Shown piece after piece: positions 10,106-23,784 of a DNA stretch of 25,693 nucleotides. The stretch's first letter is position 1. The number at the start of each line of letters is the position of its first letter. The position numbers were made by a program, and so were the translations under genes. The stretch comes from a virus, in the IMG/VR virus record IMGVR_UViG_3300010885_020865, positions 1 through 25,693 of that record. One strand, written 5' to 3'. The notes under the pieces were generated by a model. It was given only the letters and a program-made list of their open reading frames with translations. It was not told where the DNA came from and searched no databases.

Positions 10106-10260
10106 AGCTTTTAAAATTTCTTCAAACAATCAAACCACAGCAATTAGTGATCCGCGTCCGGTCAAGGATAGTGATTGAGTGCTCTGTACGGCGCAGAGTC
10201 TTCCGTCCCTCTTTTTATCGAGTTGTCGCTAGGCACACGTTTTTAGACTTGTGCGAGTCG

Positions 10261-10692
10261 TTAACCGTTTAATTTCTTTATGTGGGAGCCATGGACACGG
10301 ACAGAGATTTGTCCGTTGTAGTATTCTTGTGATTCTAGCACTCGGTGTGTAAATTGTTCTCTTGCTTCGATATAACTACATTCGGCTTTGGAGCGACAGT
10401 AGTACATGATTTCTCTTGTAAACTGTTCTGCGCCCAGAGCCGCAACATCTTTATTCAATTCATCGTTTGAGCCATAATATGTTTGCCAGTCGCTGTCTAT
10501 TTTGCTTCTGATCTTCTTTTTCTTTTTTGTGCCGTTTTTTAGTTTTACTACTTTGTATGTGGTTTTTGCGAATTTCGCTAGTTTTTTACCTATGTATTTG
10601 CGCCCTGATACACGATTCGTGATGAGATAGACGAAGCCTACACAATCTTCGGGAAGTTCCTGAATCGGGGAGCCTTGATACGTCCATGTCAT
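10261..10692 (-). CDS. GIY-YIG family endonuclease
   Basis: A 143-residue protein with the GIY-YIG fold signature in variant form: GFVYLI at 19-24 and KYIGK at 32-36, then a conserved Glu helix (ECSYIEAREQF, 104-114) and the terminal Asn motif (EYYNGQI, Asn126). An insert of six near-consecutive Lys/Arg (about 56-62, KKKKKIR) suggests DNA contact. Similar single-domain nucleases occur in many T4-like phages; some are homing enzymes, others may be repair or host-DNA nucleases. No separate DNA-binding domain is visible. It is the last gene of the gp55-gp47-gp46 operon, 40 bases after the radical SAM gene. Confidence 0.8.
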   Translation of the reverse strand: MTWTYQGSPIQELPEDCVGFVYLITNRVSGRKYIGKKLAKFAKTTYKVVKLKNGTKKKKKIRSKIDSDWQTYYGSNDELNKDVAALGAEQFTREIMYYCRSKAECSYIEAREQFTHRVLESQEYYNGQISVRVHGSHIKKLNG

Positions 10693-10732: not shown

Positions 10733-11596
10733 TTAAAATTCTGTTACACGTTGCCACTGTGTAGCAAAATTGGTAACCAAATTGGTTGAACTACAGATTT
10801 CTGCACAGGTTTTGTGCGGATGGTCTGTGGCCCAGCTGGCTTGAACCTGATCAAAATCTGCTGTTGGGTCAGCCTCACCTAGCCAACAACAGGGACTGAT
10901 CTGGCCCTTTGCACTCAAAAACAATCCTTTATCGGCCAAGGCCTGACATTGGATTGCGCCTTGCGCTACAGGACGATGCCATGTGACTGGATGTTCTGTA
11001 CCGCCTAAAAAATTTCGTTTACTGACCTTGGCTCTAAACCACTTGAATCCCATGTCTCGGGCCAGTTGTTCACAAGCGTCAACTTGATGTTCGTTGTGCC
11101 GAAACACCAGCATGTCCCAGTGTGCTGAGCCACCGGCACGAATAAAAGTTTCTGCATTTTGCATCACACGACTCCAGTTAACACCACGACGATATATGTG
11201 ATTGGTGTCTTCAAGTCCGTCGATGCTGAACACCACATAGTCCTGGGGTTTGTGTAACACATTGGCCAAATTGGCCCACCAATAACTGCCCTGTAAGCCA
11301 CCATTGGTATTCATGCCCAACACCGTGCTACTGTTGATGGATCTAACATAACTGAATATGGACTTTGATACTTCGTTTGCTGCCGGATCACCGTAGTTAC
11401 CGCACATGAACAACTTGTCCAATCGATATATCAGTCGCTCGGGCACAGTCTGTTGAAAACTTTGCAGGCTGTGTGAGTTATGTACTCGCTTGTCAAAGTT
11501 CACGTCGGTTTCACGAGCACAAGCCGGACATGAGGCCTGACACACGTCAGTAGACTCAACATGTAATACTCTGGCAGTTTCAAGCAATTTCAACAT
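10733..11596 (-). CDS. Radical SAM enzyme A with Cys-rich C-terminus
   Basis: A 287-residue protein with the radical SAM [4Fe-4S] motif CX3CX2C (C19, C23, C26; CQASCPAC), a MCGNYGDP loop (64-71) in the position of the family's Gly-rich SAM-binding region, and FSIDGLEDT (123-131). The C-terminus carries C217-X18-CC(236,237)-X26-C264-X3-C268, a SPASM/Twitch-like auxiliary cluster domain found in enzymes that modify peptides or proteins. It is a paralogue of the gene at 13365-14240: same Cys spacing and shared WW, DGLxDTxxxYRxG and HNEHQ motifs. Its start overlaps the gp46 stop by 17 bases, so translation is coupled. Substrate unknown. Confidence 0.85.
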   Translation of the reverse strand: MLKLLETARVLHVESTDVCQASCPACARETDVNFDKRVHNSHSLQSFQQTVPERLIYRLDKLFMCGNYGDPAANEVSKSIFSYVRSINSSTVLGMNTNGGLQGSYWWANLANVLHKPQDYVVFSIDGLEDTNHIYRRGVNWSRVMQNAETFIRAGGSAHWDMLVFRHNEHQVDACEQLARDMGFKWFRAKVSKRNFLGGTEHPVTWHRPVAQGAIQCQALADKGLFLSAKGQISPCCWLGEADPTADFDQVQASWATDHPHKTCAEICSSTNLVTNFATQWQRVTEF

Positions 11597-13349
11597 CGGT
11601 ATTGTAAGTTGTAAATCCGTTTTCTTTCACCACATGGAGTGTGTTGTTTACACGTCCAGCCAGTTCATCCTTGTGGCTCACTAGCCAAATGCTCTTGTTG
11701 GATTCACGTGCCATCTTCTTTAAGATAGCCAAACTGTTTTCAACTCCCGAACTGTCCATGCCCGAGTCCACAAGTTCGTCGATAAACAACAAGTTAATGG
11801 GTTGATATAGACTTTCCCACACATCGCGGAACGCCCATGACAAACTCAATATGAGCCTATTACGTTCACCACGACTCAAGTTGTCAAAGTCCAGATCCCG
11901 GCCCAGTTCACTGATGGCCACAGTCAAGTCGTTGTTGAATTTAACAGTATGCGGCAAGCCAATACGATCCAAATATTGTCCTAGTCGTGCGTTCAAGTAC
12001 GATAAGTTCTGATCAATGATGCGTTTACGAATAAAACTATCTTTGTTGGTCAACAGTTTTAACAAGAAATCTTGGTGTTCCTTAAGATTGGCCAGGTCAT
12101 TCATGACCACATAATCAATTTCTTCCAAGGCCTGTTCTTGCATTTCTTGGATTTGTTCCACATACGGATCTGCTTCGGCTTCTTTGGCAGTCAGTTGTGC
12201 CAACACAGCACCCATACTACTACGATGTTCAAATGCATCTGATTCGTTATCGTAAAATACCTGCGGTGGAGTTCCCAACTCACCCAATAATTGAAGTGCA
12301 TCGGTGTGTTCTATCCACTGTGTGTTTGTTGCCAGTGCTTGTAATGCGGCTTCCTGTAGTGCCTGGCGTTTTTCCTCTAGCAAGGTTTCTTGTTTGTCAT
12401 CGTGGAATGCTTGTCCACAACTATGACAAGTGTGATTTTCTAAACTGGCAATATCGGCTCGGAGCTTGTCTATGGTTTTCTGCTCTCTAGCCTCGTCTAG
12501 TTCACAACGCCGGATCCAATTGGTTAATTCTTTAATCTGTTTTGATTTTTCATTATACACAGTAAGTGCATGATGTGCAGATAATTCGGCTTCGATATCT
12601 ATCTTGGCCAGTTGATCGTAAGCGGCCTGCAATGCTGCCACATCCTCAGATTTTTTTCTATTCCATATTGTTTGACGTCTAAGCAGTGCGTCAATTTGAT
12701 CTTGTATGCGTCGATTAGCATCACCCACTGCTTTGATACGGAATTCTTCTTGTGTAATTGCGTCTTTGGTGGCTTTGCTTAACTCTTTGAGTCGCTCGGC
12801 TTTTTCACTTAATAGGGTAATGCCCAACAACTGTTCAATAATAGCACGTTGATCGTTGGCCTTCAATGCCAAAAACGGTTCAGTATAGGTGTTAAGTGCC
12901 ACAATGTGTTTGAACATGTCATGGCTCATGCCCAACATGCGCTCAATATCGGCCTGTGTTTCTCTTGAATCGCCTTGTGCATCGTCTGTGATTTCACGTT
13001 CGGTGCCCGACACAAAAAACTTCATTGTGTTGGGTTTACGACCACGTTCAATTCTATAGTCGGTGCCGTCTTTTTCAAAGTCGATAGTGACCAACATGTT
13101 TTTACCGTTGGTCTTGTTGATCAAGTTGTCTTTCTTGATGTTGGTTAGAGCGTTGCCGTAAAGCGCATAAGATAACGCATTTATGATCGTGGTCTTGCCA
13201 GTGCCGTTACGAGCTCCTGAGTCGTCGCCCCCAAGATCCAAGTTCTCGCCCAGCACCAAGGTCAAGTCCCTGCGATTAAAGTTAACAGCCTGTGTAGAGT
13301 TACCCACACTCATAAAATTCTTTACCGCGATATCTTTAATTTTAAACAT
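11580..13349 (-). CDS. 46: Recombination nuclease subunit, gp46 (Rad50/SbcC-like)
   Basis: A 589-residue ABC-type ATPase that with gp47 resects DNA ends for recombination-dependent replication and host DNA breakdown. Visible in order: Walker A GARNGTGKTT (45-54, Lys52), coiled coil from about 180, zinc hook CHSC (C308, C311), second coiled coil to about 430, ABC signature LSRGER (491-496), Walker B LLFIDE (520-525) and switch His559 in VSHKDE. Length is near T4 gp46 (560). It is flanked on both sides by radical SAM genes, which separates it from gp47. In T4 the two subunit genes are close neighbours. Gap to the upstream gene is 15 bases; no clear Shine-Dalgarno. Confidence 0.96.
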   Translation of the reverse strand: MFKIKDIAVKNFMSVGNSTQAVNFNRRDLTLVLGENLDLGGDDSGARNGTGKTTIINALSYALYGNALTNIKKDNLINKTNGKNMLVTIDFEKDGTDYRIERGRKPNTMKFFVSGTEREITDDAQGDSRETQADIERMLGMSHDMFKHIVALNTYTEPFLALKANDQRAIIEQLLGITLLSEKAERLKELSKATKDAITQEEFRIKAVGDANRRIQDQIDALLRRQTIWNRKKSEDVAALQAAYDQLAKIDIEAELSAHHALTVYNEKSKQIKELTNWIRRCELDEAREQKTIDKLRADIASLENHTCHSCGQAFHDDKQETLLEEKRQALQEAALQALATNTQWIEHTDALQLLGELGTPPQVFYDNESDAFEHRSSMGAVLAQLTAKEAEADPYVEQIQEMQEQALEEIDYVVMNDLANLKEHQDFLLKLLTNKDSFIRKRIIDQNLSYLNARLGQYLDRIGLPHTVKFNNDLTVAISELGRDLDFDNLSRGERNRLILSLSWAFRDVWESLYQPINLLFIDELVDSGMDSSGVENSLAILKKMARESNKSIWLVSHKDELAGRVNNTLHVVKENGFTTYNTDVEIA

Positions 13350-13364
13350 ATTTTGTATTGTAAC

Positions 13365-14240
13365 TTATTGTTCCGTGGTGCCGCAATGGTTTTTACATAC
13401 TTGTGGCGCCAAATTTTGGTTAGCCAATTTGGTTGGTATATCCATGAGCTTGTCAATATCATTGTCTGCGTGTGCCTGATTAAAGAAACAACATACATTT
13501 AGTTTGCCACTGGCATTCAAGTACATGCTGGGCAATCGTAGATGCATACAGTTCTCTTCGTCAACGCGATGTTTAACAAAGGTCAAGGGATTCATTTTTT
13601 GATCCATACTCCACGGTTGAATTTCGTATGGGTCTCCTGTTACATAATCACGAGCATTGAAATTTGATCTAACACTTCGAACCAATTCAAATCGTTTAAA
13701 CTTTAATTCTTGACTTAACTTTATGCAGTCTTTGATTTGATGCTCGTTGTGCGCCCAGGGAATGAATTGCCAAACAGCAGTACCACCGGCACTAATAAAT
13801 GTTGTTGCATTTTTGATAATTTTATCAAAGTCAGTACCTTGTCGGTACATGCTGTGCGTATCTGCCAACCCATCTAAACAAAACCAAACTTCGTGACTGT
13901 GGCCTTTTAGCAGATTGGCAAACTGTGTCCACCATACTATGTCTCTAAGACTACCGTTGGTGCGTATAAGAATTTTTTTAGAATACTGTTTGGCCAAATC
14001 AATAAGGGATTTTATATTGTGTGCCGCCACTGCATCGCCAAACGTGCCACAAAAATCCACAGTTTCCAAATTGGGAAACATACGCAGAACGTCTTCAAAC
14101 CGCTCATTGTTTAAATCCTCAATGACAAGCCCATCAGCCAGCTCATAGCCGTTTTTATTTCTACTACAGCCCGGGCACCATGCATTGCATTTACTGGTAG
14201 CCTCAACTTGTAGCCATTTGACTGTGGCTGGGTCAATCAT
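13365..14240 (-). CDS. Radical SAM enzyme B with Cys-rich C-terminus
   Basis: A 291-residue protein with CX3CX2C at C18, C22, C25 (CNAWCPGC), FCGTFGDA (63-70) in the position of the Gly-rich SAM-binding region, and CLDGLADT (121-128). Its C-terminal cysteines C231-X18-CC(250,251)-X30-C282-X3-C286 mirror those of the paralogue at 10733-11596, so both should bind an auxiliary Fe-S cluster. The start codon overlaps the gp47 stop by four bases (ATGA), a sign of coupled translation. Because both paralogues keep every cluster cysteine, both should be active; they may act as a pair or on two substrates. No precursor peptide is obvious nearby. Substrate unknown. Confidence 0.85.
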   Translation of the reverse strand: MIDPATVKWLQVEATSKCNAWCPGCSRNKNGYELADGLVIEDLNNERFEDVLRMFPNLETVDFCGTFGDAVAAHNIKSLIDLAKQYSKKILIRTNGSLRDIVWWTQFANLLKGHSHEVWFCLDGLADTHSMYRQGTDFDKIIKNATTFISAGGTAVWQFIPWAHNEHQIKDCIKLSQELKFKRFELVRSVRSNFNARDYVTGDPYEIQPWSMDQKMNPLTFVKHRVDEENCMHLRLPSMYLNASGKLNVCCFFNQAHADNDIDKLMDIPTKLANQNLAPQVCKNHCGTTEQ

Positions 14241-15253
14241 AGATGACGGTAAATGTCCAGTAGCAATGCTCGATTGAATTTGTCACTTTCGATGCTGTTG
14301 AGTTGCCCAGCAACAATTTGATCCACACTTTCAAATGCAATGTTGCCCTGTATTTCGTATTCGGTCAAGTCTGTGACCTTGGCCGGTATCAGTGTGATCT
14401 CACGTAAACGATAAGTATCAATAAATGTCTCTTTGATAAACGTGGCTTCTTCGTAACTGATATCAATATCCAAGTTGACACGACAATGCATACCGGGTTG
14501 CAACATGGCTTCGGTATGATTGATAACATCACTCAAATTAAACACACGATAGCGTGGTTGGTCAGGCCACGCATGATACTCGGGCTCTTTGCCCCATTCG
14601 AGAATGGTCAGGCCACGATCATCGTCGCCGGCATCGGCGTAGTTGTGCGGAAAGCAGTTGCCAATGTATGTGATATTCTTTTGTGTTTGGCGTTTGTGAA
14701 AGTGTCCAGTAAACACATGATCAAAGCCGCCAAAATGTTCTCTACTGACATCGCCATGTTCGGGCATGGCTACCATGGCATTCATGAGATATCCGGGCAG
14801 TTCAAAGTGCCCAAACATGTACTTGCCTGACAACTTGGGTATGCGTTTATGGTCGTCGCCTACAAGCCATGGTGCAATAACCACGTCGCCGCTACTATAC
14901 CAATCATTGCATATCGTAATGTTCGGGAGACGTCGCGCCCATTCAACGCTCTGCACATCGCGCTTGTCGCGATAATAAAGATCGTGATTGCCAGGAATAA
15001 AGAATACTTGACTAAAATTGTCATTCAAATGTTCCAGTGCCCGAAGACTGTAATTAAGTGTTATAATATTTATAGATGCACGGTTATTGTGCCAGTCACC
15101 CAGGAACATTGCGGTTTCGCAACCTTCTTCTCGAGCTTTGGCAGTTACCCATTTAACAAAGTTTAAACAATCGTCATTGTGAAGTTGGCTGTTGCTCTTT
15201 AGTCCAAAATGTATGTCCGTAAAGAGCGCGGCCTTTTTAAAAAGGTTACTCAT
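14237..15253 (-). CDS. 47: Recombination nuclease subunit, gp47 (Mre11/SbcD-like)
   Basis: A 338-residue metallophosphoesterase, partner of gp46. The five phosphoesterase motifs are present: DIH (13-15), GDWH (52-55), GNHD (88-91), GHFE (148-151) and GHFHKRQ (183-189). These ligate two metal ions for 3'-5' exonuclease and endonuclease action. Length equals T4 gp47 (339). It follows gp55 by 43 bases without a clear Shine-Dalgarno and overlaps radical SAM gene B by four bases. Confidence 0.96.
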   Translation of the reverse strand: MSNLFKKAALFTDIHFGLKSNSQLHNDDCLNFVKWVTAKAREEGCETAMFLGDWHNNRASINIITLNYSLRALEHLNDNFSQVFFIPGNHDLYYRDKRDVQSVEWARRLPNITICNDWYSSGDVVIAPWLVGDDHKRIPKLSGKYMFGHFELPGYLMNAMVAMPEHGDVSREHFGGFDHVFTGHFHKRQTQKNITYIGNCFPHNYADAGDDDRGLTILEWGKEPEYHAWPDQPRYRVFNLSDVINHTEAMLQPGMHCRVNLDIDISYEEATFIKETFIDTYRLREITLIPAKVTDLTEYEIQGNIAFESVDQIVAGQLNSIESDKFNRALLLDIYRHL

Positions 15254-15296
15254 GAGTATAGTTTAACAGAAGTTGATCAAGAACTCAAATACTAAT

Positions 15297-16217
15297 TTAA
15301 TCATCTGAGTCGTAACCACCACCACCACCACCACCATAACTACCACCGCCTTGTCCTTGGCGTGTGTAACTTGGTGTAAGCCCATTCATTTCTAGTATAT
15401 CATCACGTAGATTTTGACTACGTTTTTCGATGTTTAAGACACGAGTAAAGCTATTAGTGATAGCGGCAGTATAATACGCAAAAGGGTTCTGCGATTTTGA
15501 TTCATCGAACTGGAGTCCGATTTGGCTGAGTTGCAACAAGGCTTGGCTTCGCATTTCGTCATTGTAAGTATATCCTCTCCAATTTGATCTAGTGGCATAA
15601 CGCTCACATAACTTTATAAACATGTGTGCCAAAGTGCGGGTCATTTGTCCATGATCCTTGCTGAACTCTCCAGTGATTAAATCACCCTTCCAGTGGCTCT
15701 TGCCCACCAACATGGTAACGCCTTCGTCATCAACTTTGAAATGTTGAAACGGTGGGAAGTTACATTTGGTGTACTTTGTGGGTGCTTTGATCAATTCAGG
15801 ATCATCGTATTCGGTCAAAACCTCATTGGTTTCTTCAATAATTGGTGCACCCTTCTTAGGTTTGGCTTCTACCATGGGCACATGTTCCCAAGTCATGACC
15901 CTAAATACCACATCAGTTTGTGCAATATCTTTGAGTTTAACTTCAAAATCTTCCAATTTCTTCTTGTTTGCTTTGGCTGAACCATCAGCATTGGCCGCAT
16001 CAAACGCCAGTTTTGTTAGTCGTTCTGCACGATTTCTACGTGCTTGCAGTATGCTCTTTTTGTTGACTTTGTCGATACTGGGCAGAATCATGTCGTAGTC
16101 GGCGTCACCGGGTGACAAATATGTGCAGTATGTTGTTTTGCTTTTATGAATTTCTTTTAAGATATCTTTGTTATTGAGATAATTCTTAACTTTGGGTGGT
16201 GCAATTAATGTGGTCAC
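15297..16217 (-). CDS. 55: Late-transcription sigma factor, gp55 family
   Basis: A 306-residue homologue of the T4 late sigma factor, which directs host RNA polymerase to TATAAATA elements. The recognisable core is residues 195-275 (NWRGYTYNDEMRSQALLQLS, then FAYYTAAITNSFTRVLNIEK), a sigma region-2-like fold. The N-terminus (KNYLNNKDILKEIHKSK) is also gp55-like. It is much longer than T4 gp55 (185) because of an insert at about 75-170 and a Gly-rich linker at 287-301 ending in an acidic YDSDD. In T4 the C-terminus binds the sliding clamp; the same role here is inferred. The start is GTG (complement of 16215-16217) with AGGAT ten bases upstream. A host-type promoter precedes it. Confidence 0.92.
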   Translation of the reverse strand: MTTLIAPPKVKNYLNNKDILKEIHKSKTTYCTYLSPGDADYDMILPSIDKVNKKSILQARRNRAERLTKLAFDAANADGSAKANKKKLEDFEVKLKDIAQTDVVFRVMTWEHVPMVEAKPKKGAPIIEETNEVLTEYDDPELIKAPTKYTKCNFPPFQHFKVDDEGVTMLVGKSHWKGDLITGEFSKDHGQMTRTLAHMFIKLCERYATRSNWRGYTYNDEMRSQALLQLSQIGLQFDESKSQNPFAYYTAAITNSFTRVLNIEKRSQNLRDDILEMNGLTPSYTRQGQGGGSYGGGGGGGYDSDD

Positions 16218-20526: not shown

Positions 20527-23500
20527 ATGGCAACCGACAATAGACAAGGCGTAAAATTACCAGACTGGGCAGACCAGAACAAAGCCTACGGAATGAAATT
20601 CACTCCCGCTACTCAAAGCGGGATAGTCAAGCAAAACGTTGACCCGTTGCGTATGGGGCGACTACAGGTATGGATCCCAGATTTTGGTGGTGCAGAAGAT
20701 GATGATAACAATTGGAAGTGGGTCACTTATGCCAGTCCATTTTACGGGGCCACATACAACCCCAATAGGAACACGGACAACACTGACCAACAGTCGGAAC
20801 ACACATACGGAATGTGGCTGGTACCACCCGACATAGGTAACACAGTACTATGTACATTTGTTAACGGCGACCCTGGGCGCGGATATTGGTTTGCAGTTGC
20901 CACAGATAAAAGATTAAGCCATAATATGGTTCCCGGGGTTTCATCTAGATTTGCCGACAGGACCGACAAGTCCAGTGCCGGTGGGCTGGTAGAAGCCAGT
21001 TTGTCAAGAGTAGATGCCAAGTCGTATTTGCCACTGAGTGAGTTTAACGAAAGTCGTGAAAGCAATATTAGCGGCACATTTCCGGCAAATAAATTGCCAG
21101 TACATCAATATCAAGCTGAAATCATAATCAATCAAGGACTTGATACCGATCCCATCCGCGGGGCAACCACATCGAGCAGTTTACGTGAAGCACCTAGTAG
21201 TGTATTTGGTTTTAGCACACCTGGGCGACCATCAGAAGAAAACAGTGTGACTCCAACTATACGTCGTGGTGGACACAGTTTTGTCATGGACGATGGCGCC
21301 AGTGACGGAACTGACCAGGCCATTAGAATACGCAGTGCCGGTGGACATCAGATCTTGATGAACGACAAAGAACAAGTTCTTTACATTGCAAACTCGGCTG
21401 GCACCTCCTGGTTGGAATTTGACAGTGGCGGTGGAATCCAAATGTACAGCACAAACGGGTTCGCACTACGCACACAGGGCGCAATGAATTTGCATAGTGA
21501 TGCAACAGTTAATATTCAAGGTGCCTCGGTCAATATTAAATCTATTGGTGGAATGAAAATTGCCACACAAACACTAGATGTGCGTAGCAGTGGCAACATG
21601 AATTTGTTTGGAGCACGAGTAGGTATTGGTTCAGGTGGATCAACTTCGTTGACCAGTGGTGGTACTGTGGGTGTGGGTGCCAATGGCACACTATTATTGC
21701 AAGGCGCCGCCATAAAGTTAAATGACGGAGATGTTGCACAGATTACTGATCCGGGCGATATACCCAGTAACCTACATCAAGATGCAAACAAAACTGAAAT
21801 TGGATTATGGGAAGCGGCGGCCGGTACCCTGACCAGTATTGTGTCCAAAGCACCGTCACACGAGCCTTACAATAGAACTTCACCAGTGGTTCCGGCTTCT
21901 GATGTTTCGTTAACCGCGGTCAAAAACGTGTGTACGGATCAAGCAGGTCCAACAACACCAGCCGGGCAAGTGAGTCCAGGTGGTGCAGGCCCATTTGGCG
22001 ACTATATTGCCAGCAACGAAAGTGGTACAGCCGGATACAATGCATTTAATCGTGGATCAAGCCCGCCAGCTGGTACCGGTAGCCCACGTGAATCGCTCAA
22101 TCTCGAAAACATGACCATCGACACAATATTTGCAATGATGGCAAACACAGATCCAAAACAACGACTATTTGCAGTTGGTAGATATCAAGTTATTCCTGAC
22201 ACACTCAAAGCCGCTTGCAAGAAATTAAATGTTCCCACAACTGCTAAATTTACCCGAGACATACAAGACAACATCTTTATCAACTACCTGTGCAAATCTA
22301 AACAGCCCAAGATTGGTACATATCTAAACGGCAATGATGTCAATAACGAAGCGGCATTATTAAATGCCTGTAGTGCCACAGCCGGCGAATGGGCCAGTGT
22401 AGAAGACCCACAACTAACACCTCCACGAGGTCGTTACGACGGGCAAGGCACCAACAAGGCGCATGGCAAGACCGCGGCCACCAAGGCAGCACTCAAGGCA
22501 CAGTGGGATTTCTTACATAAACAAGGTGGCGGTGTTGTAACAACTGGAAGCGGTGCAGTATTAACTGATGGATCGGGCAACGCTGTTAAATCTGGATCAG
22601 GTACCGAAATTGAAGCAGGCATACAAGCGGCATCGGGACAAAATGTCACCAAGCAGGCCCCTGCAGAACTCATGAGAAGAAGCAATGCACCCAATACCGG
22701 CGCCATGGTTGACGCAATTGGCACATATGGTAAAGATGGCTATATTGCCGGATTTATTGCACCGCAAGTGACAGCATTGTTGACACAAATTGCCTACAGC
22801 GAAAGCGACTTTTCGTCCAGTTACAATGGCGGAGAAAACATTGGTCGCTACGGAGTAAATGCTGTGGTATTGGCCGAGTATGGTTATATAAAACCCGACT
22901 ACTTGACAAAATATCAAACACGAGCAATCGTTGACGCCAATGCATGGACCGGCAAAGACAATGTTGCCAGTATCAAGGACTTTTTGAATTCTGTAGCGGC
23001 ACAAGATTCGGTCATGGTCAGCTTTGTTAAAGATGCATACAAAGCATTGAGCAAATCTAGACCCACTGGTATCAAGAGCGGAGATAGCATCTGTACCATA
23101 GCCGGTATGATATACGTAACATACCTGTTTAGAAATGCAGTTGCTAAAAATGTTGGCAGTAATATAGATGCCATGGTAGAAGCAGCCGCTATCTGGAGAA
23201 AGAGCAACAGTGGTGCCGCACATCACGGAAAAACCCCAATTGAAGTATACAACCAAGCTCGCTACGCAATTGATGTACTGAGTGTAACCGGCATAGGACG
23301 CAGTGAGACTGCCCCTAGTACAACCGGAATCGCCCCAGACGATGTATTGGCGTTTGGTACCGGAAATGCCAGCAAAGAAAATTTTGCATTGTTATCTACT
23401 AGTTTCAAGAATGCATTACTAACAGCGGCACAGGCATATAAAACAGTATCCGGCAAAAAAATCACAGTGGTCAGTTTATACCGCCCAGACTCAGAACAAG

Positions 23501-23784
23501 AGCGTCTGTACAGCACTTGGAAAGCCGCAGGTGGTGGCCCCGGTAAACCCACAGCCGGGGGCATAACAACACCTGCACTACCGGTCAGCATGGGCGGCAA
23601 ACTTAATGCACACGGATCAGGTGTGGCCATTGACTGCGGACAACAAGCGGCCGAGGTTGCTAAAACCATTGACTTGTCCAAATACGGTCTACGTTGGGGC
23701 GGCACATTCATTACGCCGGATCCAGTGCATATTCAAATGGCCAGCTGGCTACCCAGCGGAAAATCCCCGGCAAACGCTGAATAA
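20527..23784 (+). CDS. 5: Needle/hub lysozyme gp5-like, three cell-wall domains
   Basis: A 1085-residue cell-puncturing protein at the tip of the tail. Domains: OB-fold about 30-130 (GRLQVWIPDF; MWLVPPDIGNTVLCTFVNGD; GYWFAVATD), as in T4 gp5 and VgrG; beta-helix needle about 245-400 with short repeats (GGIQMYS, GAMNLHSDATVNI, GGMKIAT); lysozyme/transglycosylase-like domain 490-620 (NESG with Glu498; FAVGRYQVIPDTL); a second lysozyme-like domain 735-915 (YSESDFS with Glu759; GRYGVNAV); and an M15-type zinc peptidase 945-1075 (SLYRPDSEQ; His1029 and Asp1036 in HGSGVAID; His1068 in DPVHIQM). T4 gp5 (575) has one lysozyme placed before the needle; here all enzymes follow it. AAGGA lies six bases before the ATG. 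Confidence 0.9.
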   Translation: MATDNRQGVKLPDWADQNKAYGMKFTPATQSGIVKQNVDPLRMGRLQVWIPDFGGAEDDDNNWKWVTYASPFYGATYNPNRNTDNTDQQSEHTYGMWLVPPDIGNTVLCTFVNGDPGRGYWFAVATDKRLSHNMVPGVSSRFADRTDKSSAGGLVEASLSRVDAKSYLPLSEFNESRESNISGTFPANKLPVHQYQAEIIINQGLDTDPIRGATTSSSLREAPSSVFGFSTPGRPSEENSVTPTIRRGGHSFVMDDGASDGTDQAIRIRSAGGHQILMNDKEQVLYIANSAGTSWLEFDSGGGIQMYSTNGFALRTQGAMNLHSDATVNIQGASVNIKSIGGMKIATQTLDVRSSGNMNLFGARVGIGSGGSTSLTSGGTVGVGANGTLLLQGAAIKLNDGDVAQITDPGDIPSNLHQDANKTEIGLWEAAAGTLTSIVSKAPSHEPYNRTSPVVPASDVSLTAVKNVCTDQAGPTTPAGQVSPGGAGPFGDYIASNESGTAGYNAFNRGSSPPAGTGSPRESLNLENMTIDTIFAMMANTDPKQRLFAVGRYQVIPDTLKAACKKLNVPTTAKFTRDIQDNIFINYLCKSKQPKIGTYLNGNDVNNEAALLNACSATAGEWASVEDPQLTPPRGRYDGQGTNKAHGKTAATKAALKAQWDFLHKQGGGVVTTGSGAVLTDGSGNAVKSGSGTEIEAGIQAASGQNVTKQAPAELMRRSNAPNTGAMVDAIGTYGKDGYIAGFIAPQVTALLTQIAYSESDFSSSYNGGENIGRYGVNAVVLAEYGYIKPDYLTKYQTRAIVDANAWTGKDNVASIKDFLNSVAAQDSVMVSFVKDAYKALSKSRPTGIKSGDSICTIAGMIYVTYLFRNAVAKNVGSNIDAMVEAAAIWRKSNSGAAHHGKTPIEVYNQARYAIDVLSVTGIGRSETAPSTTGIAPDDVLAFGTGNASKENFALLSTSFKNALLTAAQAYKTVSGKKITVVSLYRPDSEQERLYSTWKAAGGGPGKPTAGGITTPALPVSMGGKLNAHGSGVAIDCGQQAAEVAKTIDLSKYGLRWGGTFITPDPVHIQMASWLPSGKSPANAE

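Follow-up and report, generated by a model that had tools for sequence, protein, structure and literature searches.

Exchangeable modules of radical S-adenosylmethionine (SAM) genes are known from T4-like phages. In the T4-like Campylobacter phages CP220 and CPt10, the radical SAM modules differ between phages and a putative amidinotransferase is present (PMC2853527); besides its radical SAMs and amidinotransferase, the CP220 module contains two genes annotated with nucleotide-diphospho-sugar transferase domains. In pelagimyophages, radical SAM cassettes are found in a glycosyltransferase-rich host-recognition island, which is large, hypervariable and adjoins the tail fibers (PMC7029224). A marine T4-like genome carries similar cargo, with 12 radical SAMs, and the passage giving that count, alongside iron-sulfur assembly genes, describes no slot structure (PMC5332604). 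Here, we analyzed a freshwater T4-like phage, represented by a complete 25,693-base virus contig record (IMG/VR record IMGVR_UViG_3300010885_020865, hereafter the window), in which the genes of two small radical SAM enzymes, A and B, lie among gp55, gp47, gp46 and a SegE-type nuclease.

Small twitch radical SAM enzymes occupy slots in the gp55-gp47-gp46-SegE operon as at least five position-fixed clades, of which A and B represent two. As in CP220 and CPt10, several radical SAM genes of a T4-like phage thus form replaceable material, here two genes that are replaceable slot by slot, and as in the pelagimyophages, they behave as variable cassettes. CP220, however, has one central block rather than slots between these genes and contains no close copies of clade A or B, while the window lacks an amidinotransferase (amidinotransferase-like cargo was found in slot 2 of 3 other contigs). 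The pelagimyophage cassettes, in turn, are placed in their island and not in such an operon. We found no description of position-fixed slots within gp55-gp47-gp46-SegE in the open-access literature, and nothing relevant on radical SAM enzymes with gp46/gp47. While exchangeable modules are known, the position-fixed slots therefore look new, and they provide a well-defined comparative route to the question, open since the 2010 Campylobacter phage genomes, of why so many radical SAMs are found in T4-like phages.

Cargo slots and their relation to the recombination genes

For the slot analysis, contigs were fetched by gp46 alone or by gp47 alone, taking the nearest 80 per query, and were merged to 132 different contigs. 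Slots were called with thresholds of 150 bases and 110 amino acids, and cargo families were grouped by BLAST/Louvain clustering. When referring to the counts below, it should be considered that the contigs are fragments and that the core genes themselves recombine. The backbone gp55-gp47-gp46-SegE recurs in related viral contigs, with slot 1 (between gp55 and gp47) occupied in 32 of 106, slot 2 (between gp47 and gp46) in 66 of 116 and slot 3 (between gp46 and SegE) in 74 of 106. Radical SAM genes are the commonest load (138 of 295 cargo genes), and at least one is present in 54 of the 80 contigs in which all three slots could be read. All three slots are empty in 6/51 and 5/47 contigs of the two single sets (gp46- and gp47-chosen). 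A conserved late-sigma and recombination operon hence also acts as a carrier with three cargo slots.

The small radical SAM proteins fall into five clades, A, B, C, E and F. Clade A was found in slot 3 in all 86 placed copies, clade B in slot 2 in 23 copies and in slot 1 in a single copy, clade C in slot 3 (68 copies), clade E in slot 2 (6 copies) and clade F in slot 3 (16 copies), where it is fused to or followed by a short-chain dehydrogenase (SDR). As larger records contain further family members outside the operon, the slots are favored but not exclusive. Other cargo includes N-terminal-twitch (D-type) and B12-binding radical SAMs, SDRs, DUF6071/SGNH-like and AMP-binding-like proteins. Candidate homing endonucleases of HNH- or GIY-YIG-like type were also noticed in slots 1 and 2 (L043 607-1200, L168 4187-4951 and L256 2405-3016), so the slots take in mobile genes too.

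In the window, the operon reads, from its upstream end, as follows:

15297-16217, minus strand: gp55, late sigma factor, upstream end of the operon backbone (phrog_12791, E 3.4e-82)
15254-15296, minus strand: cargo slot 1 (gp55/gp47), empty in the window, a 43-base gap
14237-15253, minus strand: gp47, SbcD-like nuclease subunit (phrog_100, E 1.6e-58)
13365-14240, minus strand: radical SAM B, 291 amino acids, twitch type, in cargo slot 2 (gp47/gp46), from motifs, model, PDB matches and slot analysis
11580-13349, minus strand: gp46, SbcC/Rad50-like ATPase subunit (phrog_77, E 3e-101)
10733-11596, minus strand: radical SAM A, 287 amino acids, twitch type, in cargo slot 3 (gp46/SegE), from motifs, model, PDB matches and slot analysis
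10261-10692, minus strand: SegE-type GIY-YIG nuclease, conserved downstream end of the backbone (PF19835, E 1.9e-34)
10124-10259, minus strand: Polynucleobacter-1 RNA (RF01718), right after the SegE stop codon (Rfam 79.5 bits, E 1.3e-15)

The gp47 and B genes overlap by 4 bases and the gp46 and A genes by 17 bases, while B and gp46 do not overlap, being separated by a 15-base gap, and 40 bases lie between A and SegE. Given the shared strand and the overlaps, A and B are probably co-transcribed with the recombination operon. An earlier note on this DNA, made from the sequence alone, was correct in its coordinates, in both overlaps and in the cysteine patterns discussed below.

That note took A and B for a pair acting jointly on or with the gp46/gp47 nuclease and gp55, and read the overlaps as linked dosage or function. 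Operon position, the two overlaps and purifying selection (see below) all speak for such a partnership. The overlaps are, however, generic: empty gp47-gp46 junctions show a 4-base overlap at 48 loci and a 1-base overlap at 26 loci, and the same short overlaps are present with unrelated cargo. They are thus the normal state of the operon and signal no special tie, and overlap with core replication genes is no evidence of functional linkage in these phages. Moreover, operons without any cargo are common in both single sets and usual in the cultured relatives that we inspected.

The association of A with B was tested only in the sets chosen by gp46 or gp47, leaving out loci picked by A or B. Among the 95 contigs of the merged set with slots 2 and 3 known, both genes were present in 4, A only in 25, B only in 2 and neither in 64 (Fisher p 0.068, with p 0.14 and 0.32 in the single sets and a median p of 0.69 for phylogenetically independent pairs). 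A weak positive association is possible, yet it is not significant, each gene occurs alone, and co-occurrence with gp46/gp47 is far from constant, as A was found in 29/95 and B in 6/95 contigs. A and B thus come and go independently, but not at random sites, since A keeps to slot 3 and B nearly always to slot 2. For example, the closest contig by gp46 (L003) contains B but not A; its slot 3 is empty, with 52 bases from gp46 to SegE, and the AT-rich stretch ahead of SegE resembles the stretch found downstream of A in the window.

We also mapped both genes onto a tree of gp46 built from 147 contigs, some of them chosen by A or B. There, the distribution of A (69 contigs) requires at least 38 changes, as compared to 49.4 +- 3.1 when shuffled, and that of B (23 contigs) 13 changes, as compared to 21.6 +- 1.1. 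Both genes accordingly show some inheritance and much turnover. Protein distances of the cargo also track those of gp46 less closely than do distances of gp47 in the same contigs (r 0.50 versus 0.65 for A, and 0.66 versus 0.89 for B). A functional unit of A, B and the nuclease is therefore not supported, and we consider the joint action proposed in the earlier note to be very improbable. Instead, we are highly confident that A and B are cargo with no particular link to the nuclease. As the slots are empty in some relatives and filled with other enzymes in others, the function of A and B is probably a chemical one of its own, perhaps the modification of surface sugars, and not assistance to the recombination nuclease.

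The core genes flanking the slots could serve as homologous arms for swaps of whole cassettes between phages, and such swapping would explain the fixed position, the short overlaps and the fast gain and loss. The SegE nuclease, fixed beside slot 3, could help to drive the exchange. In any case, the slot system supplies many natural near-pairs of phages that are one cassette apart.

The window has a T4-type gene content (gp23, portal, SegE-type nuclease, gp46, gp47, gp55 and baseplate genes, according to PHROGs and Pfam). Its capsid protein is 72% identical to that of Vibrio phage 2.275.O, 70% to that of Sinorhizobium phage Phosso and 67% to those of Serratia phage BF and Pectobacterium phage CBB, such that the closest phage records are jumbo T4-like phages. 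As contigs related to the window reach 260-374 kb, the window probably represents a piece of a very large phage genome. PA5oct and CBB present the same gp55-gp47-gp46 order with slots empty or near-empty, in Atu_ph07 a single small gene occupies slot 2, and in Phosso the presumed gp55 and gp47 are separated by a small gene and an annotated glycosyltransferase, with two further small genes ahead of gp46. No close A or B was found in these four cultured relatives. A tblastn search of 50,697 phage records returned no match for A and, for B, only three Campylobacter phage records, with CP220 at 24%. Five genes of the CP220 module match our cargo profiles well, three of them C (also A/B), one a small radical SAM and one an amidinotransferase.

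The predicted enzymes A and B

A and B are homologous to each other (31% identity, E 5.9e-37). Both contain the CX3CX2C motif of SAM [4Fe-4S] cluster binding (VCQASCPAC in A, KCNAWCPGC in B) and a C-terminal pattern that reads C-X18-CC-X26-CX3C in A and C-X18-CC-X30-CX3C in B. The first C-terminal half-motif is CX13GX4C in both, as compared to the CX9-15GX4C half-motif of SPASM and twitch domains (PMC6231123). A SPASM domain is defined by seven cysteines (CX9-15GX4C-gap-CX2CX5CX3C-gap-C) and two auxiliary clusters, whereas twitch is a truncated SPASM, in which CX9-15GX4C and two closely spaced cysteines go with one auxiliary cluster (PMC6231123). We examined cysteine conservation in alignments of 45 A-type sequences, 26 B/E-type sequences and 25 sequences from clades A, B, E and F. 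CX3CX2C is kept in all 204 family members of at least 230 amino acids, and seven cysteines are invariant in the 25-sequence alignment, namely C18, C22, C25, C231, C250, C282 and C286 in B numbering. C251, the second cysteine of the 'CC', is not invariant and, being replaced by Asn in clade F, is unlikely to be a cluster ligand. The C-terminal part thus has four conserved ligand cysteines and a non-conserved one, where SPASM requires seven, and presents CX13GX4C followed by a second pair, here CX3C. With four rather than seven cysteines, A and B are therefore twitch enzymes by motif and not SPASM, which retains one half of the SPASM/Twitch label given in the earlier note and removes the other. 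These four cysteines would be sufficient to fully ligate one auxiliary cluster, as in BtrN.

Neither protein reaches the Pfam PF04055 gathering score of 29.5 bits (A 25.7, B 17.1), which relatives C (37.1 bits) and F (50.7 bits) pass, nor the cut-off of 170 bits of NCBIfam NF033640, N_Twi_rSAM (A 33.3, B 25.8). The PF04055 cut-off is, however, a profile threshold and not a structural feature, and membership in the radical SAM superfamily is decided by motif and fold. A profile search of PDB sequences gave weak partial matches only, so that fold comparison was needed. The AlphaFold models (mean pLDDT 93.6 for A and 92.4 for B) match radical SAM/twitch enzymes across nearly their whole length and present the radical SAM barrel, with Z scores of about 17-18.7 across ~240 residues against solved structures of this superfamily. 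The best solved matches are BlsE (the top Foldseek match of both models), SuiB (Z 18.2-18.7), SkfB (17.8-18.4), MoaA and anSME (about 17); BtrN was also aligned, and viperin-like enzymes score about 15. Like BtrN and BlsE (sugar/nucleoside antibiotics), SkfB (sactipeptide) and MoaA (cofactor), A and B combine a radical SAM core with a one-cluster C-terminal motif. Identity to these known enzymes in the structural alignments is nonetheless 10-17%, such that their substrates are not transferable to A and B. As the best matches are mostly within 1-2 Z units of each other, i.e., ties in VIA-align, the fold cannot pick the substrate class.

Both genes are under strong purifying selection, with a median dN/dS (Nei-Gojobori) of 0.073 for A (93 pairs) and 0.095 for B (21 pairs). 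This bears out the expectation in the earlier note of two intact enzymes under selection, all of the iron-sulfur cysteines being kept. Judging from motifs and models, A and B are very likely active twitch radical SAM enzymes. The same note called them paralogous, which holds as far as homology is concerned. In the tree, phage A, B, E and F form distinct clades that are interleaved with bacterial ones, although backbone support is weak. As bacterial lineages fall between A and B, there is no indication that they arose by duplication within the phage, and a recent duplication is disfavored.

In terms of chemistry, the SAM [4Fe-4S] cluster would generate a 5'-deoxyadenosyl radical by SAM cleavage, as in established radical SAM chemistry, and this radical would then abstract a hydrogen from the substrate of A or B. 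The auxiliary cluster may take up or relay an electron, as in BtrN or anSME.

Candidate substrates and bacterial homologues

The substrate is the least certain part of our interpretation. We tentatively favor, while stopping short of calling it probable, that the enzymes act not on gp46/gp47 but on a sugar or other metabolite belonging to a pathway that tailors surface glycans, or to a similar one, in the infected cell. The context for this guess comes from two bacterial loci and from phages. In L303, a radical SAM resembling clade F is found beside an SDR, a Gfo/Idh/MocA protein, a hexapeptide acyltransferase and a DegT aminotransferase, i.e., a nucleotide-sugar type cluster, and in L328, a homologue adjoins UDP-glucose/GDP-mannose dehydrogenase-like and GT2 genes. 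To these can be added the sugar-transferase-like genes of CP220, the pelagimyophage island and the Phosso glycosyltransferase. Several points weigh against the sugar assignment and need to be considered. The sugar enzymes BlsE and BtrN tie structurally with the peptide enzymes SuiB, SkfB and anSME. Bacterial homologues in recognizable glycan clusters are a minority, those of Microcoleus and many gammaproteobacterial ones being elsewhere, and the window contains no glycan gene. In a Pfam/PHROGs scan of the co-cargo, most families had no match; names such as sulfotransferase-like or glycosyltransferase-like cargo are hence guesses from sequence and were not used as evidence.

The same structural tie serves the main rival, namely that A and B modify a phage or host protein or peptide in the manner of anSME, SuiB or SkfB, for example within the virion or as a means of inactivating a host protein. 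The closest curated profiles to A and B point the same way, as they include W_rSAM_matur and rSAM_Geo_metal, described as metalloenzyme maturases. Sactisynthases, however, have an RRE domain (PMC6231123), whereas none is present in A or B, the models of which both begin at the first radical SAM barrel strand, although this leaves room for anSME-like enzymes, which have no RRE. Nor was a precursor-like gene seen in the slots or elsewhere in the window, where no dedicated search for open reading frames below 45 amino acids was run, in agreement with the earlier note, and the space between gp47, B and gp46 (an overlap and a 15-base gap) is too small for one. The co-cargo, in addition, looks metabolic (SDR, SGNH/DUF6071-like, AMP-binding and amidinotransferase-like). 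We therefore regard protein or peptide modification as possible but rather unlikely.

Some phage radical SAM enzymes serve the synthesis of modified DNA bases or nucleotides, and such a role for A and B would fit the nucleotide-acting viperin-like enzymes and MoaA among their structural neighbors, as well as a dCMP-deaminase-like gene seen in the cargo sequences. Yet the viperin-like match is below those of BlsE and SuiB, the cargo is variable rather than a constant pathway, and no DNA-hypermodification genes were recognized in the window, the larger records not having been searched for such genes. This role is, in our view, improbable. Taken as a whole, the reading of A and B as slot cargo encoding active twitch enzymes for sugar or metabolite tailoring appears somewhat probable.

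Additional evidence on the cargo comes from bacteria. A genome scan with the A/B alignment yielded 203 related stretches, and the phage cargo family profiles were searched against the neighbors of 72 bacterial A/B homologues. At 21 Bdellovibrionota-type loci, these neighbors include D-type radical SAMs (at 16 loci), small radical SAMs (12), further A/B-like proteins (8), SDRs (7), C-like proteins (4) and B12-type radical SAMs (3). By comparison, 15 Microcoleus-type loci have no phage cargo family among the neighbors, and among 36 other bacterial loci, cargo families are found essentially at two, L299 and L329. As the bacterial loci were picked by A/B alone, the clustering of these families there provides independent support for the view that the cargo is drawn from a real functional gene set. 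As in the phages, A/B-like, C-like, D-type, B12-binding and small radical SAMs are found with an SDR, here side by side, but the Bdellovibrionota clusters are chromosomal, comprise up to ten or so genes and are 30-38% identical to A/B. No description of a gene set common to phage cargo and Bdellovibrionota was found in the open-access literature, and the clusters offer a bacterial gene set in which this chemistry can be studied. One could speculate, though we think it rather doubtful, that the slots carry interchangeable steps of one multi-radical-SAM pathway that is whole in Bdellovibrionota, and that phages swap single enzymes and so rewrite a chemical modification, perhaps of the host envelope.

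In some bacterial contigs (L272, L275, L282 and L299), radical SAM genes of different kinds, up to about ten of them, follow one another densely along the chromosome, and L272 and L299 also contain, as judged by eye, a PP-loop/asparagine-synthetase-like gene. The nearest bacterial relatives of clade F are in L343 and L303. Clade F is fused to the short-chain dehydrogenase in some phages (L082 6863-8557 and L024 10476-12194), while in the Bacteriovoracales contig L343 (9923-12199), the corresponding SDR is encoded separately, two genes downstream of the radical SAM. The clade F radical SAM and the SDR are thus a conserved enzyme pair.

Other features of the window

Polynucleobacter-1 RNA was reported in 2010 as an orphan structured RNA from Burkholderiales and from fresh water and estuary data (PMC2864571). 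Here, all 12 near relatives examined had it at the same place after SegE, as did 3 of 5 more distant relatives, and it was not found in the inspected stretches of the cultured jumbo relatives. On this distribution, it looks like a phage RNA that ends the gp55-gp47-gp46-SegE operon.

A T4-type late promoter was considered and rejected. The operon-strand copy of TATAAATA at 15067-15074 lies within gp47, and the 3 copies in the window are not above chance (0.9 expected; 7 of 100 shuffles reach 3). No tRNA was found in the window. The best PHROG of the SegE-type nuclease (10261-10692, minus strand) is phrog_447, labeled 'NAD synthetase', which is at odds with Pfam PF19835 and looks like a misannotation. 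Finally, the gp5-like baseplate protein (20527-23784, plus strand, 1085 amino acids) shows weak C-terminal matches to M15/VanY-type peptidases, so that a lytic domain other than a T4-type lysozyme is possible.

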